Positions 3,825 through 63,085 of a DNA stretch of 64,000 nt are shown here, piece by piece (within the stretch, counting starts at the first letter, position 1; each line of letters starts with the position of its first letter). The stretch is from Levilactobacillus enshiensis. GTDB lineage: Bacteria; Bacillota; Bacilli; Lactobacillales; Lactobacillaceae. Under the pieces are notes generated by a model. The model saw nothing but the letters and a program-made list of their open reading frames with translations. It ran no database searches and had not been told where the DNA came from. The position numbers and the translations under genes are program-made. The stretch covers positions 1 through 64,000 of the forward strand of contig NZ_SULH01000006.1 of the NCBI RefSeq assembly GCF_007115095.1, given 5' to 3'.

Positions 3825-3996
3825 TGACGGTCACCCCTTCCAACTTGGCCAACTTCATTTCGGTTCGATAAAGCTGTGTGAAATCACGCTTTAAAGATTC
3901 AACCCGTTCAATCGGTGTTTTACCAATTCGTTCCTTGAACGTTTTGATCATTACCTTATAGGCATAAATACGTACATCGTTATGAACTCGTTTCAT
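3814..3996 (-). CDS. Small basic phage protein of unknown function
   Basis: Sixty residues, rich in Lys and Arg, with no motif I recognise. It is supported by a good RBS (GGGAGGG, 6 nt before ATG) and by overlapping the DUF1351 start. It lies in the leftward early operon and probably serves DNA metabolism, but nothing in the sequence fixes a role. Confidence 0.6.
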   Translation of the reverse strand: MKRVHNDVRIYAYKVMIKTFKERIGKTPIERVESLKRDFTQLYRTEMKLAKLEGVTVNGK

Positions 3997-4037
3997 AATT
4001 TCCCTCCCAGTAGATATTGCAAAATTCGATGTTTCCG

Positions 4038-4113
4038 TCTACTCTTGGAGTAGATAATTCTCGTTAGGGATTTTCTACCGCTCGTCGGCACTGCCATGCT
4101 GACGGGCTTTTTT
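4038..4113 (+). terminator. Rightward intrinsic terminator with a preceding perfect hairpin
   Basis: On the + strand, arms GCTCGTC (4080-4086) and GACGGGC (4101-4107) pair with one G-T wobble and are followed by six T. Just upstream, TCTACTC (4038-4044) and GAGTAGA (4048-4054) form a perfect 7-bp hairpin with a TTG loop. All neighbouring genes run leftward, so a rightward terminator here has no annotated partner. It may end an antisense transcript. Confidence 0.6.
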
Positions 4114-4188
4114 CGTGCATTCAATTGCTCAAAGCTAGCAATTCTTAACTTGTGAACCGTCTTTTTACTTATGATTTCTGTCACCTCC

Positions 4189-4410
4189 TCAATAAAAGTC
4201 CCGATAAGATAAGCCACGAACGACCATTTGATATTCGAAATCATTGGCCGAGAGAATAAACATTTCATTAATCATTCGGTTAGTGACTCGTACACACTTC
4301 AAGTTGGCCCAATCGACATAATCCATGAGGTTATTCTTAACGAATCGCCGTTCAGCAGGTTTTGCCATATAAAACGGCTCGTCAATTTTCTTTGTCACTC
4401 TCTTATTCAC
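4189..4410 (-). CDS. Phage early protein of unknown function, GTG start
   Basis: A 73-residue protein with no family I can name. An ATG exists at 4431, but it precedes the RBS. The preferred start is GTG at 4410 because AAAGGTGGTGA sits at the right distance and overlaps the stop of the micro-ORF upstream. Downstream of its stop comes a perfect AGGAGGTGAC with no ordinary start codon. The gene belongs to the leftward early operon. Confidence 0.6.
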   Translation of the reverse strand: MNKRVTKKIDEPFYMAKPAERRFVKNNLMDYVDWANLKCVRVTNRMINEMFILSANDFEYQMVVRGLSYRDFY

Positions 4411-4427
4411 TATTCCGTCACCACCTT

Positions 4428-4505
4428 TCAAAAGTGCCTGTCATACCAGAATCTCAGTAGTCCGCCGATTCCAAAAATTAAAACGAAGATAATTACTGCT
4501 ACCAT
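4428..4505 (-). CDS. 25-residue single-span membrane micropeptide
   Basis: The frame starts at ATG 4505 after AGGTGGTGATGAA and ends with TGA at 4428. It encodes MVAVIIFVLIFGIGG followed by a short charged tail ending DRHF, giving one predicted membrane helix. The next gene's RBS overlaps its stop codon, which is the spacing expected of a translated operon member. Function unknown. Confidence 0.55.
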   Translation of the reverse strand: MVAVIIFVLIFGIGGLLRFWYDRHF

Positions 4506-4520
4506 TTCATCACCACCTGT

Positions 4521-4536
4521 TTCAGCACTGCCCGTG
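4521..4536. repeat. 16-bp repeat, copy 1 (TTCAGCACTGCCCGTG)
   Basis: The same 16 bases occur at 12846-12861, just before the integrase gene. Here the copy lies between the HTH gene stop and the RBS of the micropeptide gene. A core GCAC-TGCCC-GTGC could form a tiny hairpin. Confidence 0.6.
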
Positions 4537-4537
4537 A

Positions 4538-4819
4538 CTAACCATTGTCGATGACTGATAAAACGGCTCGCTTTAACTCGTTTGGATCATAGAAGACTTT
4601 GCTACTTCCCTTCGGCCGATGCTCAATCAGCTTCAATTGTGGCTTGTTCTTAAAACGTTCGTAGAAGTAAGACCGTGACATTGAAAGTACCTTATACGCG
4701 TTGTCCGCATCGACCAACAGGTATTCCCGACACACTCGCTCGATGAGCGGACCAAGCATTGCTTTAGCTTCATCACGGATGATGCCGTCATAGTGTTTTA
4801 CCAATTCAGTAGGATCCAT
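4538..4819 (-). CDS. Excisionase-like / DUF771-like HTH phage protein
   Basis: Ninety-three residues. The C-terminal half reads like a small winged helix of the excisionase or DUF771 type: a turn NAYKVLSMSRSYFYERF followed by a wing with VFYDPNELKRAV. Such proteins bind DNA as phage early regulators or excisionases. The start ATG 4819 has AAGAAGGTGAG upstream. Which of the two roles applies cannot be decided here; its distance from the integrase favours a regulatory role. Confidence 0.55.
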   Translation of the reverse strand: MDPTELVKHYDGIIRDEAKAMLGPLIERVCREYLLVDADNAYKVLSMSRSYFYERFKNKPQLKLIEHRPKGSSKVFYDPNELKRAVLSVIDNG

Positions 4820-4869
4820 ATGTTCTCACCTTCTTACTTAAATAACTTGTCGTGTTGATAGTCAAAGCT

Positions 4870-5043
4870 TCACTGAGCAGGCTTTAAAAGAAGCATCGCA
4901 AATATCAAAAGAGATACAACTTCCAAACATTGCAGAACCACTTTTAAAGAGAATCGAAGGTTAGAATCACGTATTATTATAAATATCAGGGTACTTGGAA
5001 ACGCAATAATACTAATAAGCTGCCAAGCAATGATTCGTGTCAT
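4870..5043 (-). CDS. 57-residue phage membrane peptide with two hydrophobic spans
   Basis: Frame from ATG 5043 (RBS AGAAGGTGG) to TGA at 4870. Two hydrophobic stretches (about residues 4-26 and 36-53) flank a short charged loop IIIRDSNLR. No family recognised. It sits with two other small membrane peptides (4428-4505 and 5058-5135) in the early operon. Possible roles include superinfection control or host membrane remodelling, but these are guesses. Confidence 0.55.
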   Translation of the reverse strand: MTRIIAWQLISIIAFPSTLIFIIIRDSNLRFSLKVVLQCLEVVSLLIFAMLLLKPAQ

Positions 5044-5057
5044 CAAGTACCACCTTC

Positions 5058-5135
5058 TTACTCGAATAGCTTGTCGCCATAATGGCCAATGACGATTCCC
5101 AGAATTAAGAAAAGGATTAATCGTAAAGTAATCAT
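5058..5135 (-). CDS. 25-residue membrane micropeptide
   Basis: Frame from ATG 5135 (preceded by AGGAGAATAAAA) to TAA at 5058, encoding MITLRLILFLILGIVIGHYG and a tail DKLFE. One predicted membrane helix. The strong RBS and the tight spacing to the genes on both sides support translation. Function unknown. Confidence 0.55.
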   Translation of the reverse strand: MITLRLILFLILGIVIGHYGDKLFE

Positions 5136-5147
5136 TTTTATTCTCCT

Positions 5148-5978
5148 TTAATCATCAAGACTTTCATCGACGACAACCGTACCGTTGCTTGTAACGTGAT
5201 AGTTAAGGTATTTTTCACTGCCAAATGGGAGATTTTGATTATAAGCATCAATTAACGCTTTAAGTGCACCTGGTTTAGTAAATGCCTTAACCTTTATTTC
5301 CTCACTAAGACCTGTAGAAACCACCTTCTTAATTAGTCGTTCCTTATCTACCTTGGGATATTGACAAAGGTTGTTAAGAGCTACACATACGTGATTCCGC
5401 TTTGGCGTATTTGTTTCTTTACGGAAGCGTTCGTAGAATTTTAGAAAAGTGACAGTTTTTCCGTAATTCTTGAATTCAAAATTTCCTTTTTTGACGGATT
5501 CATTTTTATATCCGCTGGCATTACCAAATAAACCGATGGAAATTGAAATCGTGGATGTCACGTCAGAATATCCTTGCTCAATCAACCCAGATAGCAGAAT
5601 GTATTGTTCTTTACCCTGATTGGCATAGGCTTCGATATAATCCTTTAGTCCCCATGGACGCTGGATTGTATTCATTCGTACAATGTCATGACGATTAAGT
5701 CCCGGTTTGATAATGTATTCAATTGGTACACCGGCCTTTTTAGCTGCAGCTAATCGATGTTGACCATCGATTACGACATAATCTTCATTGACGATAATTG
5801 GTGAAATTAGTCCCACTTTAGCCTGATTAACCATTTCTTTTTTTAAGAAAACGGTACGGTTGAATTCGCTAAGCTGAAAAATGCTCAACTTGTCTGTCTT
5901 GTAAACAACATTTGATGTTTGACCAACGTGTTGTCCTCTTAAATTTTTATTTGCTTGAAAATTGCGATCATTATTCAT
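5148..5978 (-). CDS. ParB-like nuclease/CTPase-fold phage protein
   Basis: A 276-residue protein with the ParB/sulfiredoxin-type N-terminal domain, marked by VVIDGQHRLAAAKKAG at residues ~68-83. Phage copies of this fold can act in partition, transcription control or as DNA nucleases. It overlaps the upstream DUF3102 gene by 8 bp, so the two are coupled and probably act together. The RBS AGAAGGAGATAT precedes the ATG. No centromere-like repeat array is visible nearby, so plasmid-like partition is not supported. Confidence 0.8.
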   Translation of the reverse strand: MNNDRNFQANKNLRGQHVGQTSNVVYKTDKLSIFQLSEFNRTVFLKKEMVNQAKVGLISPIIVNEDYVVIDGQHRLAAAKKAGVPIEYIIKPGLNRHDIVRMNTIQRPWGLKDYIEAYANQGKEQYILLSGLIEQGYSDVTSTISISIGLFGNASGYKNESVKKGNFEFKNYGKTVTFLKFYERFRKETNTPKRNHVCVALNNLCQYPKVDKERLIKKVVSTGLSEEIKVKAFTKPGALKALIDAYNQNLPFGSEKYLNYHVTSNGTVVVDESLDD

Positions 5979-6819
5979 GTGAAATATCTCCTTCTATAAA
6001 ATTCTGCTTTTTCAGCTTTTCCTTGGTATCACGGCACCACTTTTCAAGTCCGGTGATTGATGCCACCATGGTATTCAATGCATCCGATTGATTAGACAGC
6101 GTTTTAAAATCTGATACGTAGTTAGACGATGCCACTGACGTGAGAAAATCATTGATTTCTTGGTGAAGATTTCGAACACGATTCAATGATGAAATTTCTC
6201 TCTCAAGTTTTTTCTTTTCGACTATCAGTTCGCTATTGTCTTGAACGTCGTTATTTGAGTTTTCAAGCTCTTTACGAAGCTGCTTATTTTCTCGCTCATA
6301 CCGCTCGTTAATTGATTTGGTATTTTCGACAATGCCCTTAAGATAGTCATAGTCGTCGGGAACATCCTTGATATGAATTTCCTTTTCAACGACTTTAGGC
6401 GGCTGATTACGGAGCTTGTCTAACTCTTCGTTGCTCTGTTTAAGTTGTTTCTTGGTCTCACGCAGTTCACGCACAGTCATTTCATCGGGCTTTTTAATCT
6501 CACCAGATGGAAGTTGTTGTGGTTTATCGCGTTCGGATTCAGGCATGGTGGCAATTTCGCTTAGAACTCGCATTCCTAAATGTTGGTACGTGCCATCATT
6601 AGGAAGCTCACTTACTATCTTGATAAATCGACTTGCTTGTGTCCTATCCATATGAATAGAAGACAACCATTTAAGATATTCTCCATGAGCCAAATCATTC
6701 TCTTTCACCCATTTCAATCGACGACCAATCTCAAAGATTGCTTGTCCACCAATTGATTGGTAAGACTTGATTTCGGTGGTCAGTGTTGTTAAATCACTTG
6801 ATAATGATATTTCTTGCAA
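5971..6819 (-). CDS. DUF3102 family phage protein with long coiled coil
   Basis: The 282-residue protein has an N-terminal ~120-residue DUF3102 domain (IFEIGRRLKWVKEND and HMDRTQASRFIKI motifs), then a predicted coiled coil over about 125-245. DUF3102 proteins occur on phages and plasmids, often next to ParB-like genes as here, and are presumed DNA-binding. The start is TTG after AAGGAGGAATG. This is the first leftward gene after the divergent gap at 6820-6893. Confidence 0.75.
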   Translation of the reverse strand: MQEISLSSDLTTLTTEIKSYQSIGGQAIFEIGRRLKWVKENDLAHGEYLKWLSSIHMDRTQASRFIKIVSELPNDGTYQHLGMRVLSEIATMPESERDKPQQLPSGEIKKPDEMTVRELRETKKQLKQSNEELDKLRNQPPKVVEKEIHIKDVPDDYDYLKGIVENTKSINERYERENKQLRKELENSNNDVQDNSELIVEKKKLEREISSLNRVRNLHQEINDFLTSVASSNYVSDFKTLSNQSDALNTMVASITGLEKWCRDTKEKLKKQNFIEGDISHE

Positions 6820-6893: not shown

Positions 6894-7172
6894 ATGATGG
6901 ATAATCGAGATATACATTTACACGTTTTACGTTTACTTGATGGACACAAGAATAGTGAGGCCAAGCCTTTAAAAGAAGTCATGAAATTCTTAGTGGGAGA
7001 AAATCATGGTGAAAAGTGGGCCAACGACATTCTTATCTCTATGGACATTAAGCATGATGCATTGATAAATTTGGAATTTATCGCAGATGCTCAGAATCAA
7101 CTTGGATTAGGAAATTATTCCAATTCCGAAAATTATTTAACATCTAAAGGTCAACGCATAGCTAACCTCTAG
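6894..7172 (+). CDS. Small rightward phage protein, possible winged helix
   Basis: A 92-residue reading from ATG 6894 (AAAGGTGG upstream; ATG 6897 is an alternative). The final YLTSKGQRI pattern resembles the wing end of small winged-helix proteins, but I do not recognise a family. It runs against the direction of the surrounding early genes and overlaps the end of the gene at 7162-7449 by 11 bp. That orientation suggests separate control, perhaps in lysogeny. Confidence 0.55.
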   Translation: MMDNRDIHLHVLRLLDGHKNSEAKPLKEVMKFLVGENHGEKWANDILISMDIKHDALINLEFIADAQNQLGLGNYSNSENYLTSKGQRIANL

Positions 7173-7449
7173 GCCATACCCGAAAGGCTTTACCCTGATA
7201 CAAGGCGTAGAGCCTTTCATTTTTATATCCATTAAACAGGTGGTCATATCCACTCTTGTACTTACCGGGAAACAAGACCATATCCGCATCCACTGTTAAA
7301 ATCGGAATACGTTCGATTCCATAATTTCCTTCTATGTCGCGGCTTAATACAGTTCGGTAAACAACTGCCTTATTTTGCGATTCCACCAAGTGATTAGAAA
7401 TGTTTCGTAATTCTTCGAGTAACTCAAGTTGAAATTCATTCTTTTTCAT
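7162..7449 (-). CDS. Phage protein of unknown function
   Basis: Ninety-five residues with an N-terminal helical segment and a beta-rich C-terminal half ending FRVWPRG. The RBS TAAGGAGATTACTC precedes ATG. No family recognised. It lies between the DUF3102 block and the antirepressor gene and is convergent with the short rightward gene at 6894. Confidence 0.55.
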   Translation of the reverse strand: MKKNEFQLELLEELRNISNHLVESQNKAVVYRTVLSRDIEGNYGIERIPILTVDADMVLFPGKYKSGYDHLFNGYKNERLYALYQGKAFRVWPRG

Positions 7450-7503
7450 GAGTAATCTCCTTAGATCCCGTATTTTTCGACCAGGTATTCATATTCAATT
7501 CTC

Positions 7504-8286
7504 CTAATATTCTTCGTTCCAAACTTGGTACCGAATGGCATATTCTTTAACAATTGCTGTGTAAATCTCAATCAGCTTCTTGTCATGGGCAATCACATCA
7601 ACCTTTGTTGTATTCTTACGCTGAGTTTTTGAAGTCCCTTCCTCAGCCATTCGACGTCTCAAGTTGGTTAGTCGTGTCTTAAGTGATACCCCGCCTCGCC
7701 GATCTACTTCGTCGTAGATGTCGTTGCGAGTCATTTTGTATGATTCGCCGGTGTTACCTTGCTGACGTGCAATCTTACTAATGAGGTGTGAGGTCTCATT
7801 TCGCCAGTCCATGGTAGACGTTGCTACAATCTCACTAACGCCATCAATTTTGTTTTCGAGGCGGTGTTGGGTACGTTCGCTAGCTGCTAACTTATCTACA
7901 ACACCCTGCATGAATTGGAGCTCAGGTGAGAGACCAGAAGTGTTTAAATGTGATTTAGGATTGAAATAGTTCTCTTCAAGTTGGTCAAACATATCCCAAG
8001 CTTGGTTGGTTCCCAACATTTTAGAATGTCGACTTGCTCCTCGTTTTGTCCACAAATTAATTGCTCCAGCATGTTCGTTAACCAATCCCGTTTTTCGGGT
8101 TTGGTTCTTGAAGGCCTTTAGTTGGTCGCCTTCTAAATGAAAGTAATGTGTACCCTCGACAAACTTGGTACGGTTAGCATTAAAATTGTCAGTAATGCGT
8201 CGTGACGTTGTCCCATAAAAATCTGCTAATTGTTCAGTAGTTAAAATCAATTCGTTATTAAACTTAACTTGTTTCAGTTCGTTCAT
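7504..8286 (-). CDS. Phage antirepressor, ORF6N and ORF6C domains
   Basis: A 260-residue protein with an N-terminal DNA-binding ORF6N domain (residues ~1-100: LTTEQLADFYGTTSRRI, WTKRGASRHSKML) and a C-terminal ORF6C-type domain (~130-255: TRNDIYDEVDRRGGVSLKTR). Antirepressors of this type counter the CI repressor or control early genes. The gene directly follows the Cro-like gene, the classic position in lactobacillus phages. The RBS AAGGAGGATTATTC gives a clear ATG start. Confidence 0.85.
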   Translation of the reverse strand: MNELKQVKFNNELILTTEQLADFYGTTSRRITDNFNANRTKFVEGTHYFHLEGDQLKAFKNQTRKTGLVNEHAGAINLWTKRGASRHSKMLGTNQAWDMFDQLEENYFNPKSHLNTSGLSPELQFMQGVVDKLAASERTQHRLENKIDGVSEIVATSTMDWRNETSHLISKIARQQGNTGESYKMTRNDIYDEVDRRGGVSLKTRLTNLRRRMAEEGTSKTQRKNTTKVDVIAHDKKLIEIYTAIVKEYAIRYQVWNEEY

Positions 8287-9675: not shown

Positions 9676-9738
9676 AGTAATTTTACGTCCAATCGCTGAA
9701 GACACTAAAAGCTGAAGACATACTTCTAAGGAGAAATT

Positions 9739-54958: not shown

Positions 54959-56083
54959 TTAACCAGCCGTAATCTGCATACGACCGTTCTTCTTGGAATG
55001 ATAAAGGTTCGCGTCGACCCGTTTGTAAAAGTCCAAGGGGTTGTGATCGCTTGCACTCAAGACGGAAACCCCCACAGAAATCGTGACGTTTAAAACCACA
55101 TCATTATAGGGAATCTCCAGCGTCTTGACCGCATCGAAGACCTGTTCGGCGACTTTTCGTGTCCGTTCTAAATCATAGTCAGGGAAAATAATGTTGAATT
55201 CTTCCCCACCGGTCCGGTACAGAACGATCCTGTTATCGACTTTTTTCAGGGTGGCCGTCACGGTACTGGCCACCTGCTTCAGCACCTCATCCCCTGCCAA
55301 GTGACCATAGGTATCATTCACGTGTTTAAAGTGATCAATATCAAACATGACCATCGACAGGTCCGTGTTGTGAGCCGTACTCTGTTGAAATTGATAAGCA
55401 ATGGCTCTGTCATATGCCGCATAGTTTTGTACGCGCGTCAGTGCATCCCAATTAGCAGACTGGAAAAGACGATCTTTGATGCGACGATCCTTATCCTGAA
55501 TCTTGAAGTAGCCATACATCAAAGATGCTAACGCTGCATAGTCGCCAAGCTCAATGAAATAGGTGCTCCAATCCAAGTTGAAGCGTACCTTGACCAAAAA
55601 CCACAACGCCAAAGCAAATAACATGGCAATTGTAATGTAACGCGTGAACGGCCAACGCCATAAATGCGTACTTTGTTGATAAGAAACGACATAGAACAAC
55701 ACAAATAAAATCGTATAGATCCACGACAGAATTGCCGTGTAATTACCATTCATTAACATAAAGCCGACCCCAGCTAAGAAAATCAGCCAGTGGGGAATCT
55801 TAAGCTGTAAGAAGTAAGCCACAAAAATCAACAGTAAGAGTTGAAAATTGGTAAACGTCCACGACAAATGACTATCGCGAACAATTAGTTGTAATGCAAA
55901 CACCGACACGACAGCACAGGTCGTCCCGATGGCAATCTGAACCTTCTTCACGTTGATTGGTTTGTTTTGCGATTCGACTTTCGCAGTAACCCAATTAAAA
56001 ATCGACCAGTACAGCGTGATAACCCCTAAGACAAAGAAAACACTCGTGACGATTGGGGGAACTAGCCAAATTGACCATGCCAT
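54959..56083 (-). CDS. Membrane diguanylate cyclase (GGDEF)
   Basis: A 374-residue protein. About six membrane helices cover residues ~5-190. The GGDEF domain (~210-370) has the active-site motif GGEEF in YRTGGEEFNIIFPD and the metal/substrate motif MVMFDIDHFKHVNDTYGH. It should convert two GTP to c-di-GMP. No RxxD inhibitory site is evident just before GGEEF. RBS GAGGAGAATGATT precedes ATG. Divergent from an EAL gene. Confidence 0.92.
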   Translation of the reverse strand: MAWSIWLVPPIVTSVFFVLGVITLYWSIFNWVTAKVESQNKPINVKKVQIAIGTTCAVVSVFALQLIVRDSHLSWTFTNFQLLLLIFVAYFLQLKIPHWLIFLAGVGFMLMNGNYTAILSWIYTILFVLFYVVSYQQSTHLWRWPFTRYITIAMLFALALWFLVKVRFNLDWSTYFIELGDYAALASLMYGYFKIQDKDRRIKDRLFQSANWDALTRVQNYAAYDRAIAYQFQQSTAHNTDLSMVMFDIDHFKHVNDTYGHLAGDEVLKQVASTVTATLKKVDNRIVLYRTGGEEFNIIFPDYDLERTRKVAEQVFDAVKTLEIPYNDVVLNVTISVGVSVLSASDHNPLDFYKRVDANLYHSKKNGRMQITAG

Positions 56084-56089
56084 TGTCTA

Positions 56090-56380
56090 ATCATTCTCCT
56101 CGTTAGTTAAGTTTAGTAATTGATTACCGACCAAGGTACCAATTATTCCCAGCTATTCCGCATTTCACAACAATCTGCGAACCCGGGCTAAATAACTCAC
56201 TACTCTTACTATAGAGCAAACCATATAATAAAACCATAAACCTTTATATAATATAATATGTTACATAAGAAATTAATACGACCAAAATTCGCTCTTTGTC
56301 CAACTTTTCTAATAATTCACTCTATTTTTAATCGTCAAAATAAAGTATGATGGTAGCAGACACCTGTTAAGGAGGAACTC
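56090..56380. promoter_or_regulatory. Divergent AT-rich promoter region of the GGDEF/EAL pair
   Basis: About 300 bp, AT-rich near 56215-56345, with no gene. TATGAT at 56346 may be a -10 for the EAL gene. No riboswitch-like structure was recognised. Confidence 0.45.
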
Positions 56381-56386
56381 ATACCT

Positions 56387-57061
56387 ATGTATCGTTATTT
56401 TCTTCAGCCACAACTAGATGTATCCAACAACTCGTTGATTGGCTACGAGTTGCTGATTCGCCAACAGGTTGATGGCAAGTGGGTCCTACCCCACAACTTT
56501 GCGTCCATTCCAATCAGCGTTCAAGCTGACCTCATCAATCGAACGGCCCAGAAACTAGCCTTAAAGATTGGGTCTGTTTCCTTTAACGTCAACCAAAGCC
56601 AATTCATTGATCCAACCATTGCCAACGCCATTATTGCTGCTCAGCGGCACATTTATCCGATCAATTTGGTTTTGGAGGTCACTGAAGAACGGACGGACGA
56701 GAAGGTTTCTAATCAACAAATCATCGATCAAGTTCACTTTTTCGATGAACATTTAATTCAATTGAGTTTGGATGACATCGGTACAGGCGTCAACACTTAT
56801 GATCATCTAGAACCCATCTTACCCTATGCTAGTGAAATTAAATTTGCTATGCAAAACTTCCGTCAGGAAAATCGTGAAAACGAAATTCCCGAGGCCCTGG
56901 CCTTTTGGGATAAGATTGCCAAGCAGTATAAGCTTCGTTTGATTCTTGAAGGCGTGGAAAATGAAGAAGAACACGACATGGCCAATGACTTAGAGATTGA
57001 TCTTCGTCAAGGCTGGTTCTACGGAAAGCCTCACCTCTTCAAATTGGACGGCGACAAGTAA
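56387..57061 (+). CDS. c-di-GMP phosphodiesterase (EAL domain)
   Basis: A 224-residue stand-alone EAL protein. Catalytic landmarks are kept although the name motif is ELL: YELLIR (residues ~20-25), FNVNQSQF, LEVTEE, LDDIGTG, IKFAM, LEGVENEEE and QGWFYGKP. These correspond to the metal ligands and general base of active enzymes, so it should hydrolyse c-di-GMP to pGpG. RBS AAGGAGGAACTC precedes ATG. Followed by a perfect terminator; opposite the GGDEF gene. Confidence 0.9.
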   Translation: MYRYFLQPQLDVSNNSLIGYELLIRQQVDGKWVLPHNFASIPISVQADLINRTAQKLALKIGSVSFNVNQSQFIDPTIANAIIAAQRHIYPINLVLEVTEERTDEKVSNQQIIDQVHFFDEHLIQLSLDDIGTGVNTYDHLEPILPYASEIKFAMQNFRQENRENEIPEALAFWDKIAKQYKLRLILEGVENEEEHDMANDLEIDLRQGWFYGKPHLFKLDGDK

Positions 57062-57092
57062 GAACCCGTATTTGCGAATACGGGTTCTTTTT
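57062..57092 (+). terminator. Intrinsic terminator of the EAL gene
   Basis: GAACCCGTATT (57062-57072) and AATACGGGTTC (57077-57087) form a perfect stem, followed by T5. Confidence 0.92.
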
Positions 57093-57110
57093 GTTAACAT
57101 TCAAAAAATA

Positions 57111-57160
57111 AAGAGCACCAAAACGTTGTCAAATCAACGCTTCGATGCTCTTTATTTATA
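57111..57160 (-). terminator. Intrinsic terminator of tRNA-Glu
   Basis: AGAGCACCAAAACGTTG pairs with CAACGCTTCGATGCTCT with internal mismatches; the leftward RNA ends TTTATTTTTTG. Confidence 0.75.
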
Positions 57161-57176
57161 AACGTCGTCTTAAGTA

Positions 57177-57250
57177 TCACCCGCACGGGGCTCGAACCCG
57201 TAACTCCGCCTTGAGAGGGCGACGTCTTAAACCAGTTTGACCAGCGGGCA
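57177..57250 (-). tRNA. tRNA-Glu (anticodon CUC)
   Basis: Seventy-four nt. Acceptor TGCCCGC/GCGGGTG pairs with two wobbles. The anticodon stem TCGCC/GGCGG holds the loop CTCTCAA, giving anticodon CTC, and the T arm is ACGGG-TTCGAGC-CCCGT. CCA is not encoded. The identity comes from the anticodon only. It is divergent from tRNA-Gln. Confidence 0.88.
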
Positions 57251-57272
57251 ATGTCATTTACTAGCAATATCT

Positions 57273-57301
57273 AATTTACGCTATCCAACAAAAAATGTCA
57301 A
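57273..57301 (-). promoter_or_regulatory. Promoter of tRNA-Glu
   Basis: Reading leftward: -35 TTGACA (57301-57296), 17-bp spacer, -10 TAAATT (57278-57273). Confidence 0.65.
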
Positions 57302-57371
57302 TTGTTCTCTGCATAAAATTACAGAAATTCGGAAATTCATGCAGTTCGCCCCATTTTTTAAAGAAAACTGG

Positions 57372-57400
57372 TTGACACCAAAAGCGGAACAAGTTACTAT
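57372..57400 (+). promoter_or_regulatory. Promoter of tRNA-Gln
   Basis: -35 TTGACA (57372-57377), 17-bp spacer, -10 TACTAT (57395-57400). Confidence 0.75.
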
Positions 57401-57430
57401 TAAATAGTTGCTTCAAGCAGCGCAGATCAT

Positions 57431-57502
57431 TGGGTATTCGCCAAATGGTAAGGCAGCGGACTCTGAATCCGTAAGTTACTGGTTCGAGCCCAGTATACCC
57501 AA
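57431..57502 (+). tRNA. tRNA-Gln (anticodon CUG)
   Basis: Seventy-two nt. Acceptor TGGGTAT/ATACCCA is perfect, the anticodon loop CTCTGAA gives CTG, and the T arm is ACTGG-TTCGAGC-CCAGT. CCA is not encoded. Its last ~22 nt recur at 59761-59783, so this tRNA is the insertion target of the element that follows. Confidence 0.92.
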
Positions 57503-57503
57503 T
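57481..57503 (+). repeat. attL-like site, 3' end of tRNA-Gln
   Basis: GGTTCGAGCCCAGTATACCC and AAT match 59761-59783 at 21 of 23 positions; the last 15 (CCCAGTATACCCAAT) are identical. This is the expected left junction of an element integrated in the tRNA. Confidence 0.75.
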
Positions 57504-57516
57504 TATTGTTTTACAT

Positions 57517-57560
57517 TAGTCGCTATTAGACCTCACGGGGGTTGATATAGCGGCTTTTTT
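57517..57560 (+). terminator. Element-borne terminator after tRNA-Gln
   Basis: CGCTAT (57521-57526) pairs with ATAGCG (57547-57552), then CTTTTTT. It replaces the original tRNA terminator, now at 59801. Confidence 0.65.
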
Positions 57561-57598
57561 AGTACATTGGGCTTTAAATTGGTGTCCATACGAGGTAG

Positions 57599-57880
57599 CC
57601 ATGTGACAGCCAAGATGACAGGGTAGAAAATACGGCCTTAAAGCTCGGCAGTGACCGACAAATAAAGGTACTGCGAGAAAATCAGGAAGCCGTTGCCTAC
57701 ACCCTACAGGGAAGTGACTCTGAAACTCAAACGATCATTAAACGAATGTATTTTAATCGCAATGATGAGGCTACTGTAATCACACTAGCAATAGAGCTTA
57801 GTTGTGATCGTACTGGGATAAGCCGTAAACGTATGGCCTTTTTCAAGGCATTAGCCAAAGAGCTGGGCTTACATCCCTAA
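57599..57880 (+). pseudogene. ArpU-type phage late-gene regulator, 5' end missing
   Basis: The frame is open for 93 codons between TAG at 57596 and TAA at 57878, but it has no suitable start codon or RBS. It encodes VENTALKLGSDRQIKVLREN near the start, then TIIKRMYFNRND, a helix-turn-helix (LAIELSCDRTGISRKRMAFF) and LAKELGLHP. This is the layout of ArpU/RinA-like regulators of phage late genes. It is a remnant of the prophage that inserted in tRNA-Gln. Part of a putative arm site lies at its 5' edge. Confidence 0.75.
57604..57621 (+). repeat. Putative integrase arm site, left copy
   Basis: TGACAGCCAAGATGACAG matches 59687-59704 (TGACAGCCAAAATGACAG) at 17 of 18 positions. The copies lie about 100 bp inside the left att core and about 57 bp inside the right one, in the same orientation. 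Confidence 0.55.
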
Positions 57881-57926
57881 CCGATCTACCCTGCTGGCTT
57901 TGAATTAAAGTATAATTTCACAAAAT

Positions 57927-57957
57927 AAAAAGACTATCCCTTGGGTAGTCTTTTTTT
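57927..57957. terminator. Bidirectional terminator between the ArpU remnant and the secreted-protein gene
   Basis: AGACTATCCC and GGGTAGTCT pair with one bulged T around a 2-nt loop; A5 and T7 flank the stem. Confidence 0.8.
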
Positions 57958-57963
57958 ATATGA

Positions 57964-58914
57964 TTATTGCAATCCCTGAACATATTGCTTGGCTTTTTGT
58001 TCGTCAAATGAGTATGCACCATAGTTATTGCCTTGTAATAAGTCGGCATATGACTCCGCAATATTGCCAAGATTGGTGTAGAACTTTTGATTACCAACTT
58101 TTACCATAATTCTGAACCCATCTGCGTCACCATTTTTGTCATCTTTTGCTTGGAACACGTCACCAAGTGACATTCTCAAACGATACAAAGTTTTCCCAAA
58201 GACCTTAACCTTCTTGGTTCCAAACCCCTTCAATGGTTTAGCCAGATAGTAAGTGTAAACTGACTTTCCACGGTTGAATTTTTTAATTTTAATTGACTGA
58301 GAAATTTTGGTGTAATTGGTATTGTTCGTGTAGTAATTCAAATAGTTGTCCGCAGTCACAGTTATAAATTTCTTACTACTTACTTGGCTACTTGAGTTTG
58401 AACCAGCCCGATACAGATCGGGTAAATTTGAATATCCGCCATATGCAAAGGCAGTTTTAGCAGTATGACTCTTTAATATTGATGGCTTAACAGTATTCAT
58501 AGATATGCTATACTGCCACTTTTTACCAATTTTACTGAATACTTTTTTCTGATTTTTCTTTGAAAGTGTAGTGTTCTTTATACTGGCAAGACCTCTGCTG
58601 TCCACACTGCCAATCACCACTGAATTTTTGGAGATTTTTGCACCCTTATTGCGGTATTGATTTCCCAAGTTTAGTGACTTAGATACCGTAAATACGTCCG
58701 GTTGTAATTTACCCGCATTTGTACGGCTATCGCTATCCCGTGTAATTCTCGTTAGATTACGAATACCAACTTTATCAAACTCGCTAGTTATCTTTTTACT
58801 AGTTGCCATGGCTTTTTTGCTAGTTTTAGCAGACGCATTGGTTACAGCTAGACTACCGGCAGCAGCACCGAGCAGCATTAGCAATACTGCACTCTTACTT
58901 CCCATCTTAAACAA
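57964..58914 (-). CDS. Secreted protein of unknown function, island cargo
   Basis: About 316 residues with a signal peptide ending near TNASA-K (residue ~30). The start is TTG 58914 or ATG 58905; AGGGGG lies 8 nt before the TTG. The mature protein is basic, Lys/Ser/Tyr-rich and beta-prone, with KPLKGFGTKKVKVFGKTLYR near residues 225-245 and no LPXTG. It is the only intact large gene between the att-like repeats. No family recognised; surface attachment or a small-domain lactobacillus secreted family is possible. Confidence 0.65.
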   Translation of the reverse strand: MFKMGSKSAVLLMLLGAAAGSLAVTNASAKTSKKAMATSKKITSEFDKVGIRNLTRITRDSDSRTNAGKLQPDVFTVSKSLNLGNQYRNKGAKISKNSVVIGSVDSRGLASIKNTTLSKKNQKKVFSKIGKKWQYSISMNTVKPSILKSHTAKTAFAYGGYSNLPDLYRAGSNSSSQVSSKKFITVTADNYLNYYTNNTNYTKISQSIKIKKFNRGKSVYTYYLAKPLKGFGTKKVKVFGKTLYRLRMSLGDVFQAKDDKNGDADGFRIMVKVGNQKFYTNLGNIAESYADLLQGNNYGAYSFDEQKAKQYVQGLQ

Positions 58915-58975
58915 ATAATTACCCCCTAATATAATTCCTTACTAAACATTATAGCGCAAGCCCAAGAACATTAAA

Positions 58976-59005
58976 AACCACCCTATTAACCGGCAGGGTG
59001 GTTTA
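58976..59005 (-). terminator. Intrinsic terminator downstream of the micropeptide
   Basis: CCACCCT and AGGGTGG pair around a 10-nt loop; the leftward RNA continues TTTTTAAT. It would end a transcript from about 59290 across the micropeptide frame. Confidence 0.75.
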
Positions 59006-59046
59006 CTGTTACTCTTTTGCTCAATATACTATCTGCTTTCTAATGT

Positions 59047-59075
59047 TTGAATTGTGCTACATCCCCCGCTAAAAT
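59047..59075 (+). promoter_or_regulatory. Candidate promoter of an RNA antisense to the micropeptide mRNA
   Basis: -35 TTGAAT (59047-59052), 17-bp spacer, -10 TAAAAT (59070-59075). RNA starting near 59082 would run into the 3' part of the leftward mRNA at 59121-59237. Confidence 0.45.
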
Positions 59076-59120
59076 TGAGGTACACAAATACAAGCGGTGT
59101 CTCACTGCCTATGCCATAAG

Positions 59121-59237
59121 TCATAGGAGCTTTGCGACTAACTGCCAGATTTCAATGACGAAATTGATTACTGTTATAATCAATGTTATCAACCCGGCTA
59201 GTTTTTCGTGAGGCTCTTTTTGTAAGTAATCAGCCAT
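59121..59237 (-). CDS. 38-residue membrane peptide, type I toxin-like
   Basis: Frame from ATG 59237 (AGTAGGTGCTTAGAA upstream) to TGA at 59121. A charged N-terminus MADYLQKEPHEKLAG is followed by a hydrophobic helix LITLIITVINFVIEIW and a tail QLVAKLL. A leftward -10 (TATACT near 59290) and a terminator at 58976 define a long mRNA with a large 3' region. A rightward promoter at 59047 would give an overlapping antisense RNA. This layout matches type I toxin-antitoxin loci, but the peptide does not match a toxin family I can name. Confidence 0.5.
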   Translation of the reverse strand: MADYLQKEPHEKLAGLITLIITVINFVIEIWQLVAKLL

Positions 59238-59269
59238 TTCTAAGCACCTACTGCAGCCCGACATAACTA

Positions 59270-59405
59270 GTTAGGACATCCCCGCAGCAGGTAGTATAAT
59301 ATAGATGTGATGTTGCCAATCTTAATTAAATTCCCCTGATATTTATTATTCTTACGCATTGTTGTGCTGAATGCCCTGCCCGAATAGATTGAGTGGGCGT
59401 TTTTG
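59270..59405 (+). ncRNA. Small RNA candidate 1 with its promoter
   Basis: The promoter box GTTAGGACAT (59270-59279) lies 15 bp before TATAAT (59295-59300), giving a start near 59307. The ~99-nt RNA ends at ATGCCC/GGGCGT followed by T5 (about 59405). No RBS-preceded ORF is inside. The same box precedes candidate 2. Confidence 0.5.
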
Positions 59406-59462
59406 TTTATCTTGGGAAATATCGCAACACTGCAGGGATGACTACGGTACTAGAACTTTTCT

Positions 59463-59590
59463 GTTAGGACATTTCAGCAACGGGTATTATAATTAGGTTA
59501 TAGTTAATGGCTTTACAATTTAATAAGTCACACGCCAATATGTACACACAGGTTTAGCTTTATCCGAACGGTTCGGATAAAGCTCTTTTT
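59463..59590 (+). ncRNA. Small RNA candidate 2 with its promoter
   Basis: GTTAGGACAT (59463-59472) again lies 15 bp before TATAAT (59488-59493), with start near 59500. The ~90-nt RNA ends in the perfect stem AGCTTTATCCGAA (59556-59568) and TTCGGATAAAGCT (59572-59584) followed by CTTTTT. No supported ORF is inside. Confidence 0.5.
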
Positions 59591-59686
59591 GATACATGAA
59601 GACAAAATAAAAACTGCCAGCCATTAAGCTAACAGTTTCATCGCCCTGCCAAAATTAAGTATCAAATATGTGTGAGTTACTGTCAT

Positions 59687-59704
59687 TGACAGCCAAAATG
59701 ACAG
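59687..59704 (+). repeat. Putative integrase arm site, right copy
   Basis: TGACAGCCAAAATGACAG, 17 of 18 identical to 57604-57621; a further ACAGCC follows directly. It lies close to the right att-like core. Confidence 0.55.
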
Positions 59705-59760
59705 CCAGTTTATAGTCAAATGTACATAAATGCCTATGCAACGCTGTTTCTAAGGGGGGT

Positions 59761-59783
59761 GGTTCGTTCCCAGTATACCCAAT
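59761..59783 (+). repeat. attR-like duplicate of the tRNA-Gln 3' end
   Basis: GGTTCGTTCCCAGTATACCC plus AAT repeats the tRNA-Gln 3' end with only AG to TT changed in the T loop region. No tRNA body precedes it. It marks the right junction of the inserted element. Confidence 0.75.
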
Positions 59784-59800
59784 CAGAAGAACAACCCGTT

Positions 59801-59845
59801 AACCGCTAATCAGACGTGAAAACGTTGCGTTAGCGGTTTTTTTGC
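59801..59845 (+). terminator. Original tRNA-Gln terminator, displaced by the insertion
   Basis: AACCGCTAA (59801-59809) and TTAGCGGTT (59830-59838) pair, with ACGT/ACGT inside, followed by T7. It lies 18 bp after the right att-like repeat, where a terminator of the uninterrupted tRNA would be. Confidence 0.75.
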
Positions 59846-59856
59846 CGTTTTATTTT

Positions 59857-59906
59857 AAAAGAAGCTGCTGGTCTCGATAATTTTGGCGAGACCAGCAGCT
59901 TCTTTT
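59857..59906. terminator. Perfect 19-bp bidirectional hairpin
   Basis: AAAAGAAGCTGCTGGTCTC (59857-59875) and its exact inverse (59888-59906) flank a 12-nt loop. It probably terminated the now broken leftward gene at 59963. Confidence 0.85.
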
Positions 59907-59962
59907 ACTAAAGCAAGTTATCATCCAGCTGGCTTGACGTTAAGTTCATCCCTAACGAAAGT

Positions 59963-60229
59963 TTAGTTCCAACCATAGTTGTTACCGTAGTTGTCTCCCT
60001 TAGGATTCGTTTGCTTGGTCAGCTACTTACTGGTGTAAAAATACGGTTCATCAACCGGCATTGACGATAGGTTCTTGGCATGCAACACTTTTACCTTTTT
60101 GCCATCAACCTTGGCCGTCACGACTTTGTAGCTCTCCAATGCCTGTTTAGGTCCCATAAAACGTTTACTCGTGTCCCAGATTCCCCAGGTGGTCGTCTTA
60201 CCAGCCTTATAAGCAACTGCCCAGTTGTC
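59963..60229 (-). pseudogene. C-terminal remnant of a secreted lactobacillus protein
   Basis: Leftward reading gives DNWAVAYKAGKTTTWGIWDT near the start, then FMGPKQALESYKVVTAKVDG and VDEPYFYTSK, an in-frame TAG, and LTKQTNPKGDN followed by an Asn/Gly/Tyr tail to TAA. Stops lie just upstream and no start codon or RBS exists. The sequence looks like the end of a surface or secreted protein. A loss of the 5' part plus an internal amber stop makes it a pseudogene. A strong hairpin terminator still follows. Confidence 0.65.
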
Positions 60230-60260
60230 CCTCTAGAATTTTTAAATTTTGTCGACTAGT

Positions 60261-60842
60261 TTAAACCGGTAAATTTCGATAAAGCTTTTGGAGATTCTTC
60301 TTGTCATACTTGGTTGGCTTATCTTCCTTAAATGACGAAAAATTCATGACACTCTCAAAATTTTTGGACGGTCGCAATCCTAAGATATCACCAATTGCGG
60401 TACTCCCCCAACCAGCTCTTTCAGTCTTGTTGAAATAAAATTGCTTCATCATTTTGCGCGACAATAGAATTTTGTAATTGGGGGACTGCGTCGTCTCTAA
60501 AGTTGAATCATCATCACCATTTTCCACTGGTGGGTAACTCGCTGTATCCGTATAAGCATAATTCTTTCCAGCAGTCTTAATCGTTGTCAACACGATATTA
60601 GCCGTCGTCGCATCACGTGTTTCCACCAGCTTGACCACCTTCAACCGATTCCAATTCTTGACTGCTAACTGCCACACACCCTGGTAATAACGCCCGGTTG
60701 ACGAGATGTGATACGTAATCGTCTTTCGTGGAAAATTAGCCTGTGCTTTTGCCTGCGCATTGACTGGGCTGATTAAACCAACTCCAATCACCCCCAGAAT
60801 GACAATCATCCCCATGAGCCAACGCCTATTGACATATTTCAC
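60261..60842 (-). CDS. Secreted matrixin-like protein lacking zinc ligands
   Basis: A 193-residue protein from GTG 60842 (AAAGGGGAAAC upstream), with a signal peptide ending near VNAQAKA. The mature part follows the plan of small lactobacillus matrixin-like (M10-type) peptidases: ITYHISSTGRYYQG, a helix with AVKNWNRL, a strand ANIVLTTI, and a C-terminal SVMNFSSF after the metal site. Where HExxHxxGxxH is expected it reads TAIGDILGLRPSK, so all His ligands and the Glu are lost. It is probably inactive or has a new function. Confidence 0.65.
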   Translation of the reverse strand: MKYVNRRWLMGMIVILGVIGVGLISPVNAQAKAQANFPRKTITYHISSTGRYYQGVWQLAVKNWNRLKVVKLVETRDATTANIVLTTIKTAGKNYAYTDTASYPPVENGDDDSTLETTQSPNYKILLSRKMMKQFYFNKTERAGWGSTAIGDILGLRPSKNFESVMNFSSFKEDKPTKYDKKNLQKLYRNLPV

Positions 60843-60999
60843 TGTACGTTTCCCCTTTCCCGTAATCTTCCTGTTTTGATGGGTGATGCCCCTACCTAGT
60901 TTATTGATTGGGGACGCCCCCACCGCTCTTAAATTATACAAAAACAGCATGACACATTATGTCGTTTCCCGTTCTCGACTAAAAAATAATCGTCGGCTA

Positions 61000-61050
61000 A
61001 AAAGGGACCACGGCTCCTCGAAGAAAGTCCGAGAAACCATGGTCCCTTTT
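61000..61050 (-). terminator. Intrinsic terminator of the adhesin gene
   Basis: AAGGGACCACGG and CCATGGTCCCTT pair apart from mismatches, with CTCG/CGAG inside; leftward RNA continues with U tract. Confidence 0.8.
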
Positions 61051-61069
61051 AATTTCTATTCACTCACTC

Positions 61070-63085
61070 TCAGTGTTTCCGTAACCAACCGTAACCAAAT
61101 CCGCCTGCGATAGCCAGTAAGGCTAAGCCAACCATTGTGTACACCAGACCACGAGACTGATTTTCACCGGTCTGCGGTAAGGTGGTCCCAACGTATGACC
61201 CGTTGCCATTTGCCTGACTACTCCCACTTGTCGATGATCCGGTTGAAGAAGCCCCTGCTCCCCCAGTCGTTGTCCCTGGCGTCGCCGTGGTCGAACCGTT
61301 ATTGCCAGATGTTGTTGGCGATGTTACCGGTTTGTTCGGTTTCGTTGGTTTAGTCGGCAGTGTTGGTGTCGTTGGCTTTACTGGTGGCACTGTGGTTTCA
61401 GGTTTCTCCGGCGTGGTTGGTGGCGTCACCGGTGGCGTCGTCGTCCCAGGATTCTCTGGCGTCGTTACTGGCGGTGTCGTCGTTCCAGGGTTCTCTGGCG
61501 TCGTTACCGGCGGCGTCGTTGTCCCTGGGTTCTCTGGCTCCGTTACTGGCGGTGTCGTTGTCCCTGGGTTCTCTGGCTCCGTTACTGGTGGCGTGGTCGT
61601 CCCTGGGTTCTCTGGCTCCGTTACTGGCGGTGTCGTTGTCCCTGGGTTCTCTGGCTCCGTTACTGGCGGTGTCGTTGTCCCTGGGTTCTCTGGCTCCGTT
61701 ACTGGCGGTGTCGTTGTTCCAGGATTCTCTGGCTCCGTTACTGGCGGTGTCGTTGTTCCAGGGTTCTCTGGCTCCGTCACTGGCGGTGTCGTTGTTCCAG
61801 GGTTCTCTGGCTCCGTTACTGGCGGCGTCGTTGTTCCAGGGTTCTCTGGCTCCGTCACTGGTGGCGTGGTCTCACCGCTGTCTTCCTTTGTATCGGTCGC
61901 CTTAACTGACACAGTCGCTGTACTTCCAGCCGTAATTGTAAACGGTAATGGTTCCTTGTTCAACGTATAGCCAGTTGGTGGTGTCACCTCAACAAATTGA
62001 TAGTTGCCAGCCTCCAAGCCTGAATAAGTAAGCATTCCGTCTGCAGTTGTCGTTAGTCCCGCTTTAATGATGTTACCGGCACTGTCCAGCAAGTCGTAAA
62101 CGGCTCCGGCTAGTTTTTGACCCGTTTCGCTATCCTCTTTAGTCAAAATAACTTCACTGGGGACTTTTTCGTTCCCACTGTTATCACCATTGCCACTTCC
62201 AGAGCCTCCCCATGCGATCCGAGCAGTAATGTTCTGACCATTCATCGAAACGGTATTCAGCCACTCTCCGCCAGTCCCTGTAACCGTCGGAATCGTATGA
62301 TATGTCATGTTTACGGCCGTCTTGACATTTTCAAACGTAAAGATCAGCGTATTGCCAGCCGCTTCAACCGTGGGCGTTAGCGAACCTCCATCACTGTTAA
62401 AGTCCCCCGTCTGTGGATCAAAGTGGCCGGTTGTGGCCTGCACACTCCCATCAACGTACTCCTGATTAGGACCCATGTTGTCAGTAATAACAACTTGACC
62501 CATGTTCGTACTGTTCGGGTTAAAGGCCACGTTCCATGTCAACCGCGCTGGCGTGCCATCTGGATTGTGCTCGCTGACCCAGCCAATTTTATTAATGCCC
62601 CAATCCAACCCAACGTTTTGGTTCTGTGAACTTCCTTTAACGTAGAACTTCAAGGTCCCCCGTCGGTTCGTCGCCGTGCCAGCTAAGGCATCGTTAAAGG
62701 TAATCGTCCCGGTGTTTTCACCCTCCTTAATGGTAAACGTCCCAATCTGCCGACCACTATCATCGTAGAGTGGAAAGGTCACATCTCGCCGACCCACAGC
62801 GGAAAATGGAAATGTTACGGTCGCCGTATCACCATTCTGGATAGTCTCGCCGTCCGGTAGCCCCCAAGTGTAATCAACCATATAGTTGTCCCACTTGCTC
62901 AAGTCACTTCCATTAGGAATTCGGTTCCCATTAGCATCCGTAATAATAGCATCATTTTCACCCACACCAGAAATCGATATATTACTAGCATGCGCCGTAA
63001 TGCCACCAGCACCGAGGCCTCCGACAAGATAGACGATGATGGCTATCACTATACCCATCACGACAGCGGTTATCTTCCTTCGCAT
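61070..63085 (-). CDS. LPXTG-anchored adhesin with Cna_B domain and 13-residue repeats
   Basis: A 671-residue cell-wall protein. Signal peptide ~1-33; two Ig-like adhesive domains ~35-310, resembling MSCRAMM ligand-binding regions; a Gly/Ser linker; one Cna_B/SpaA domain ~318-410 with the isopeptide-type Lys in EVILTKEDSETG and Glu in FVEVTPPTGY. Eleven 13-residue Pro/Thr repeats span ~412-556. A Pro/Lys then Ser/Gly spacer leads to the sortase motif LPQTG (636-640), a membrane helix and RKH. Sortase A should link it to peptidoglycan. RBS TTGGAGGAGG precedes ATG. Confidence 0.92.
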   Translation of the reverse strand: MRRKITAVVMGIVIAIIVYLVGGLGAGGITAHASNISISGVGENDAIITDANGNRIPNGSDLSKWDNYMVDYTWGLPDGETIQNGDTATVTFPFSAVGRRDVTFPLYDDSGRQIGTFTIKEGENTGTITFNDALAGTATNRRGTLKFYVKGSSQNQNVGLDWGINKIGWVSEHNPDGTPARLTWNVAFNPNSTNMGQVVITDNMGPNQEYVDGSVQATTGHFDPQTGDFNSDGGSLTPTVEAAGNTLIFTFENVKTAVNMTYHTIPTVTGTGGEWLNTVSMNGQNITARIAWGGSGSGNGDNSGNEKVPSEVILTKEDSETGQKLAGAVYDLLDSAGNIIKAGLTTTADGMLTYSGLEAGNYQFVEVTPPTGYTLNKEPLPFTITAGSTATVSVKATDTKEDSGETTPPVTEPENPGTTTPPVTEPENPGTTTPPVTEPENPGTTTPPVTEPENPGTTTPPVTEPENPGTTTPPVTEPENPGTTTPPVTEPENPGTTTPPVTEPENPGTTTPPVTEPENPGTTTPPVTTPENPGTTTPPVTTPENPGTTTPPVTPPTTPEKPETTVPPVKPTTPTLPTKPTKPNKPVTSPTTSGNNGSTTATPGTTTGGAGASSTGSSTSGSSQANGNGSYVGTTLPQTGENQSRGLVYTMVGLALLAIAGGFGYGWLRKH
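61415..61870 (-). repeat. Tandem 39-bp repeats in the adhesin gene
   Basis: Eleven units of 39 bp encode TTTPPVTEPENPG (nine copies) or TTTPPVTTPENPG (two copies). Units are nearly identical in DNA, so copy number can change by slippage or recombination without a frameshift. Confidence 0.9.

Follow-up and report, generated by a model that had tools for sequence, protein, structure and literature searches.

The locus

This study concerns the probable remnant of a small integrative element at the 3' end of a tRNA-Gln(CUG) gene in Levilactobacillus enshiensis. The stretch of DNA analysed, hereafter the window, comprises 64,000 nucleotides of contig NZ_SULH01000006.1 (C54 in our numbering) from a genome of 3.07 Mb, labelled G000. 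The following features bound the element:

57430-57503, plus strand: tRNA-Gln(CTG), the host gene and attachment site (ARAGORN; Rfam tRNA, 65 bits over 57431-57502)
57480-57503, plus strand: left core (attL), the 3' end of the tRNA (repeat search, shuffles)
57604-57621, plus strand: left arm-type motif TGACAGCCAAGATGACAG (repeat and genus search, shuffles)
59687-59704, plus strand: right arm-type motif TGACAGCCAAAATGACAG (repeat and genus search, shuffles)
59760-59783, plus strand: right core (attR) (repeat search, shuffles, comparison with relatives)

A first-pass annotation had read the locus as a decayed element in the tRNA 3' end, with the end of the tRNA repeated with two changes, an 18-bp motif inside each end, a displaced tRNA-type terminator beyond the right copy and, inside, a broken ArpU-type regulator, one secreted-protein gene and small-RNA-like units, without an integrase. 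This interpretation is supported by empty sites in related species, an integrase-bearing sister element and a recombinant right core, and its parts hold as well, apart from a reservation about the small-RNA-like units. The tRNA end and its copy agree in 22 of 24 nt; at up to 3 mismatches the whole window contains exactly two core sites, and two sites were found in 0 of 100 shuffles. The 18-nt motif is exact at both positions and, among 35 genomes of the genus, occurs only in G000 (twice) and G031 (twice). Since 2 of 100 shuffles also reached at least two sites for it at up to 3 mismatches, the motif alone is a weaker signal than the core. Both copies presumably served as integrase arm sites. 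A degenerate tRNA array as the source of the second fragment was not seen, tRNA-Glu and tRNA-Gln being the only tRNAs that ARAGORN found in the window. Among 19 other tRNA-adjacent loci checked for a second copy of the last 20 nt (up to 4 mismatches), five had one in the same orientation, in one case with 4 mismatches, and a sixth had an inverted match only, also with 4 mismatches.

Empty sites and integrase-bearing relatives

The DNA of the window was searched against 58 genomes (34 of the other 57 belong to the same genus) and matched 35 of the 58, all of this genus and its own included. The alignment used for empty sites drew on 20 loci from 18 genomes and compares other species of the genus, not other strains. 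In G017 and G019, two other species, the matches of the core 57480-57503 and of the right block 59760-59843 overlap at a single place, so that position 57503 joins 59784, as the first-pass annotation had predicted for an unoccupied site. The left part of the window ends and the right part starts on the same 24 nt in G017, and G019 is colinear with the window, with its left flank from 55648 and its right flank again from 59963. In seven of the 18 genomes (G007, G009, G011, G017, G019, G021 and G032) the right block and the tRNA core align without a break. As G021 carries a 42%-identical integrase 203 nt after its tRNA and is not empty, we take only G017 and G019 to be empty sites. In the search of the 58 genomes the interior had no match over its whole length at this tRNA in any relative; the pieces matched there, in G031 and G026, belong to the ends.

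A sister element occupies tRNA-Gln in G031. It measures 5.2 kb, has core copies on both sides and the 18-nt motif at both ends, and encodes in this order an integrase, a repressor, two helix-turn-helix (HTH) proteins, a protein of 73 amino acids (aa) and an ArpU-type regulator. Its integrase is a 405-aa tyrosine integrase with arm-binding, SAM-like and catalytic domains. The search for intact prophages with the tRNA-Gln core and arms, which the first-pass annotation had proposed, thus led to an integrase element of 5.2 kb and to no full prophage. A further element in G015 (6.7 kb) is bounded by terminal repeats and encodes an integrase, a repressor and HTH proteins. A DNA search of a phage collection with the noncoding parts of this element and of that in G031 found no match. 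The nearest relatives of the window element are small elements without structural genes, a point that the first-pass annotation had overlooked. Both also contain inverted arrays of short repeats of the TTTTAC or GGAAC type that resemble replication origins (L021 in G031, 6453-6748; L063 in G015, 6990-8003).

The integrase search (35 genus genomes, E up to 1e-30) gave 25 matches in 17 genomes. Nine of these have 72-100% identity and all nine adjoin tRNA-Gln or a copy of its end, the latter in one case only, a truncated integrase in G026 (C16). The remaining 16 are at most 42% identical, and one of them, that of G021, adjoins tRNA-Gln by position. Three integrase probes found no match in window positions 55001-62000 at E 1e-4. 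The matches in the own genome, near tRNA-Ala and tRNA-Arg, have identities of just 40% and 38%, so that no obvious excision helper is present there, and the element probably cannot excise unaided. Among the features of a tyrosine-recombinase element in a tRNA 3' end, the direct repeat and the empty site are found and an integrase of its own is not; the window copy is a remnant only, without an integrase gene.

Several observations concern the tRNA pair and the attachment motifs more generally. In L039 (G028, 2901-6058) and L040 (G027, 2964-6125) tRNA-Gln is inverted in comparison with the usual divergent pair: it shares the strand of tRNA-Glu at a distance of about 3 kb, and a single core copy (GGTTCGTTCCCAGTATACCCAA) remains beside tRNA-Glu; a similar inverted copy is present in G010. 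In several species the tRNA-Glu/tRNA-Gln cassette (window 57082-59843 compared with L021, L025 and L032-L034) has its orientation reversed with respect to the adjacent EAL gene. The arm pattern was found in two contigs (L110, L111) of the viral_contigs collection, approximately at chance level by a rough estimate made without a control, and the attP-core pattern had zero matches in viral contigs. CATCCCCGCAGCAG, considered as a common operator, occurs in several elements yet elsewhere too and was dropped.

Replacement of the tRNA terminator

Two terminator-like stretches follow the two cores:

57518-57560, plus strand: terminator-like hairpin and T run after the tRNA, supplied by the element (by eye; not listed by the terminator scan)
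59784-59843, plus strand: host tRNA-Gln terminator, displaced by the insertion (likeness to empty sites)

The 83 nt after the left core are identical to G031 at 81/83 positions and to G024 at 78/82 (gaps ignored, near-full-length values only), compared with 88.9% likeness to G031 over 57175-57621, which is mostly host DNA. Horizontal transfer would produce such a difference. In G000 and G031 alike the right core reads GGTTCGTTCC, and the left cores have the letters of each host's tRNA. The right core is recombinant, its GGTTCGTTCC half being common with the right core of G031 and its downstream side resembling the empty sites; the stretch 59784-59843 is like those found after tRNA-Gln in other species. 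Because the sequence after the left core resembles G031 and that after the right core resembles the empty sites, the terminator at 57518-57560 arrived with the element, and the host's own tRNA-Gln terminator is the one at 59784-59843, now 2.3 kb away. The first-pass annotation had recognized the displaced terminator and overlooked that the element supplied the present one. Across the 35 genomes several terminator types follow the tRNA (judged by eye), and in G022 both core and terminator are duplicated around a 949-bp unit at tRNA-Gln. Elements of this kind may pick up and carry terminators.

A truncated regulator next to the left end

The left interior of the element consists of a gene remnant:

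57622-57628, no strand: approximate position of a putative deletion junction (similarity to the left end of G031 stops at 57621)
57629-57880, plus strand: C-terminal 83 residues of an ArpU-type regulator (phrog_36, E 1.4e-9; comparison with relatives)

The regulator is truncated at its N-terminus and its remaining frame is open. The 83-residue piece matches phrog_36, annotated as 'transcriptional regulator'; the name ArpU is the label of the first-pass annotation and is borne by no library match. The stump has 44, 43, 41, 40 and 39% identity to the regulators of L092, L091, L090, L021 and L063, respectively. Everything from the integrase through the regulator N-terminus is absent relative to G031, and since the stump starts 8 nt past the end of the left motif, a single deletion from inside the left arm to mid-regulator would explain the loss if the ancestor was G031-like.

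The secreted-type gene

The largest gene of the element, called SEC here, converges with the regulator stump:

57927-57955, no strand: inverted repeat between the convergent regulator stump and SEC genes (repeat search)
57964-58914, minus strand: SEC, secreted-type protein of 316 aa (open reading frame (ORF) list; signal peptide by eye)

No Pfam, PHROG or NCBIfam family was found for SEC. Its predicted structure (mean predicted local distance difference test score, pLDDT, 82.6; predicted template modelling score, pTM, 0.80) had no match among PDB and viral models at E 0.001. The ratio of nonsynonymous to synonymous substitutions (dN/dS) against the nearest relative (91% identity) is 0.07 at a dS of 0.66, from which purifying selection can be deduced; SEC is the one intact gene of the element and is maintained. 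Matches at E 0.001 occur in 29 of the 35 genus genomes, many of them partial. The named collection holds 22 SEC loci, all from this genus or from uncultured Lactobacillus; 10 of the 22 have a tRNA or tmRNA in the flank, and some flanks end at contig ends. SEC thus also occurs away from tRNA genes, which the first-pass annotation had overlooked, and its role as fixed cargo is weakened by the location of the nearest relative at a site without a tRNA. In G026 (C16) a more distant SEC (36%) lies beside the truncated tRNA-Gln-type integrase. The promoter and leader of SEC (58821-59018) match DNA in G003, G012, G026 and G033 at 72-89% without the mature part, and in L120 (9716-10657) a leader like it is followed by another mature protein.

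The right-end module

The remainder of the element is occupied by short units:

59079-59115, plus strand: block GGTACACAAATACAAGCGG..., like blocks at the tRNA-Ala loci of G004 and G008 (putative RNA function)
59121-59264, minus strand: small ORF of 47 aa, or 38 aa if read from an inner ATG, with a hydrophobic stretch (ORF list)
59270-59300, plus strand: promoter-like repeat unit 1, AGGACA-16-TATAAT (repeat and promoter scan; similar in G016 and G004)
59463-59493, plus strand: promoter-like repeat unit 2, AGGACA-16-TATAAT (repeat and promoter scan)
59556-59584, plus strand: strong intrinsic-terminator-like hairpin after unit 2 (terminator scan)
59610-59639, minus strand: terminator-like hairpin with further copies in many genomes of the genus, at several element ends (DNA search and terminator scan)

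The two promoter-like 31-nt blocks are 81% alike and, together with the strong terminator, agree with the small-RNA-like units of the first-pass annotation, although an Rfam scan returned no family besides tRNA at the cut-off. The small ORF belongs to no family in Pfam, PHROG or NCBIfam (38-aa form). A block next to tRNA-Ala in G004 shows 74% likeness to the stretch 59264-59650, parts of which recur in G008, G016 and G026. An Fst-type toxin above the NCBIfam cut-off lies at 9680 within L112, an 8.2-kb element at tRNA-Ala in the own genome, and Fst-like peptides were found in L107, which appears to be one contig with L142, and roughly 0.5 kb beyond the L116 element. The window itself gave no Fst-type toxin, and a role in addiction at this locus would therefore be speculation. 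Beyond the element, 61070-63085 on the minus strand encodes a surface protein that ends in an LPQTG-type motif and contains a tandem repeat of 13 residues (PENPGTTTPPVTE), whose array differs in related species.

Origin of the element

We consider it highly probable that the locus holds a small phage-related integrative element, most likely of the satellite type, which was inserted into the tRNA-Gln(CUG) 3' end by a tyrosine recombinase and later internally deleted. The attachment site of the element would have brought along both a duplicate of the tRNA 3' end and a spare terminator; site-specific recombination would then have left the tRNA whole and terminated and pushed the host terminator to the far side. 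A later internal deletion may then have taken the integrase, the repressor, the small HTH genes and the N-terminal part of the regulator, leaving both attachment ends with their arm-like motifs, the regulator stump, the RNA-like module at the right end and the selected SEC gene.

Some observations sit less well with this account. The comparison covers other species only, and the integrase relatives comprise both full prophages and satellites. Neither the G031 nor the G015 element has a recognized replication gene. The identity of the regulator stump to its counterparts in prophage-like remnants that carry lysis genes (44, 43 and 41%) slightly exceeds that to the G031 and G015 regulators (40 and 39%), and satellite ancestry is therefore not proven. 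Likewise, SEC is missing from the G031 and G015 elements and has its nearest relative (91%) at a site without a tRNA, and it may have joined separately.

The stump leads to the strongest alternative, that the element is what remains of a full-length prophage that lost its structural and lysis genes and kept attL, the stump, SEC as a lysogenic-conversion gene and attR. This is possible, though we hold it to be the less likely origin. A prophage-like remnant near tRNA-Arg in G031 (L090, C12) combines an integrase stump, a primase, a regulator, a holin, an endolysin and three SEC genes, a regulator, a holin and a SEC-like gene follow one another in G009 (L091), with similar genes in G032 (L092), and prophages of L. 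curvatus sit in a tRNA-Gln gene according to PMC10688831. However, the G031 element, the sole one that shares both ends of the window element, has 5.2 kb and no recognized structural gene. A search for terminases in 18 genomes, which covered phrog_2 as the sole family, found none in G031 (other terminase families were not searched), and for the tRNA-Gln integrases of G003, G015, G024, G030 and G033 the matches lay more than 60 kb off or on other contigs; the exception is G012, where a weak match lies at a distance of about 6 kb from a copy of the core. An ancestor resembling a satellite thus seems favoured over a larger prophage. As a separate observation, L090 (9794-16940), L091 (2257-5959) and L092 (2655-7630, by similarity) have regulator, holin and secreted-type genes, L090 an endolysin too, with no obvious structural gene between them, and might represent retained lysis cassettes.

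A non-autonomous element that depends for its mobilization in trans on a related element's integrase, similar to a cis-mobilizable element (CIME), appears improbable. The preservation of both ends with core and motifs would fit it, as would other integrase-less units bounded by repeats, namely the 949-bp unit at tRNA-Gln in G022 and a probable 2.5-kb unit at tRNA-Ala in G004 (second copy 16/20 nt) with a similar right-end module. Against it, the own genome has no integrase above 40% identity, and the contents of the integrase-less units differ, as expected for independent erosion. We would be equally reluctant to accept a broader proposal, in which tRNA-Gln elements with a spare terminator swap that of the tRNA and the integrase-less units at tRNA-Gln and tRNA-Ala form a non-autonomous class with a common RNA-like right end that trans mobilization or an addiction-type module maintains in the genus, as opposed to simple products of decay. 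That the tRNA end was repeated by chance or through a local duplication, with no integration involved, can practically be dismissed: T-arms are alike between tRNAs, as an inverted 21-nt match between tRNA-Glu and tRNA-Gln in the window illustrates, but the repeat is unique, and the empty sites in G017 and G019, the sister element and the recombinant right core all contradict it.

Comparison with known systems

Lactobacilli prophages integrated in tRNA genes resemble the element in their site, tRNA-Gln being one that prophages of L. curvatus use (PMC10688831), and the integrase of phage TMW 1.591 P1 has 43% identity to that of G031. They differ in that no capsid, tail, terminase or lysis gene was recognized in the window element, whose scanned proteins include no structural, packaging or lysis family; four phrog_2 terminase matches in the own genome are all on other contigs. 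The phage collection, searched by DNA with 57400-59900, gave 23 records, and among the matches listed (20 of 23) only the tRNA was matched.

CIMEs derive from conjugative elements. The window element shares with them the retention of attL and attR without an integrase; a conjugative origin sets CIMEs apart, and mobilization of the window element in trans would be hypothetical.

Parallels also exist with phage-inducible chromosomal islands (PICI), including Staphylococcus aureus pathogenicity islands (SaPI), and streptococcal satellites. Like these, the G031 and G015 elements have a terminal integrase, a repressor, HTH genes and terminal repeats, with no structural gene recognized. PMC13376191 defines phage satellites by integrase, regulatory and replication genes, a size of 7-20 kb and the lack of structural genes. 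In contrast, the window copy has 2.28 kb with a regulator stump only, the G031 (5.2 kb) and G015 (6.7 kb) elements fall below this range and have no recognized replication gene, and no helper phage or packaging gene is known; PICI-type gene content and size in this sense are thus seen neither in the window copy nor in its G031 sister. Other elements with terminal repeats in the genus come closer in size: L112 (8.2 kb, own genome) and L114 (11.0 kb, G031) at tRNA-Ala, and L116 (11.3 kb, G003) and L118 (8.1 kb, G002) at tmRNA. L112 encodes an integrase, a repressor, an HTH protein, a DnaD-like protein and a 121-aa protein without a family match. In L114, L116 and L118 we found integrase, repressor-like and Rha-like matches together with primase or helicase genes, and in L116 a transposase as well; no structural family was matched by the ORFs of at least 75 aa that were scanned (10/16, 6/13 and 4/9, respectively). 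These four are satellite-like in content, with integrases other than the tRNA-Gln type.

In the open-access literature we found nothing on phage satellites together with Levilactobacillus or with Lactobacillus and ArpU, on ArpU in phage-inducible chromosomal islands, or on a prophage attP that restores the transcription terminator of a tRNA gene. The evidence supports well that the element is, in biological terms, an ordinary genomic scar of a known kind, with the element-borne tRNA terminator as its possibly general point. It also points to an uncharacterized family of secreted-type proteins often located beside tRNA genes. Together with its relatives it provides a comparative series at one tRNA in one genus, empty, occupied with an integrase and eroded, which suggests that successive insertions can exchange what lies downstream of a tRNA, including its terminator.

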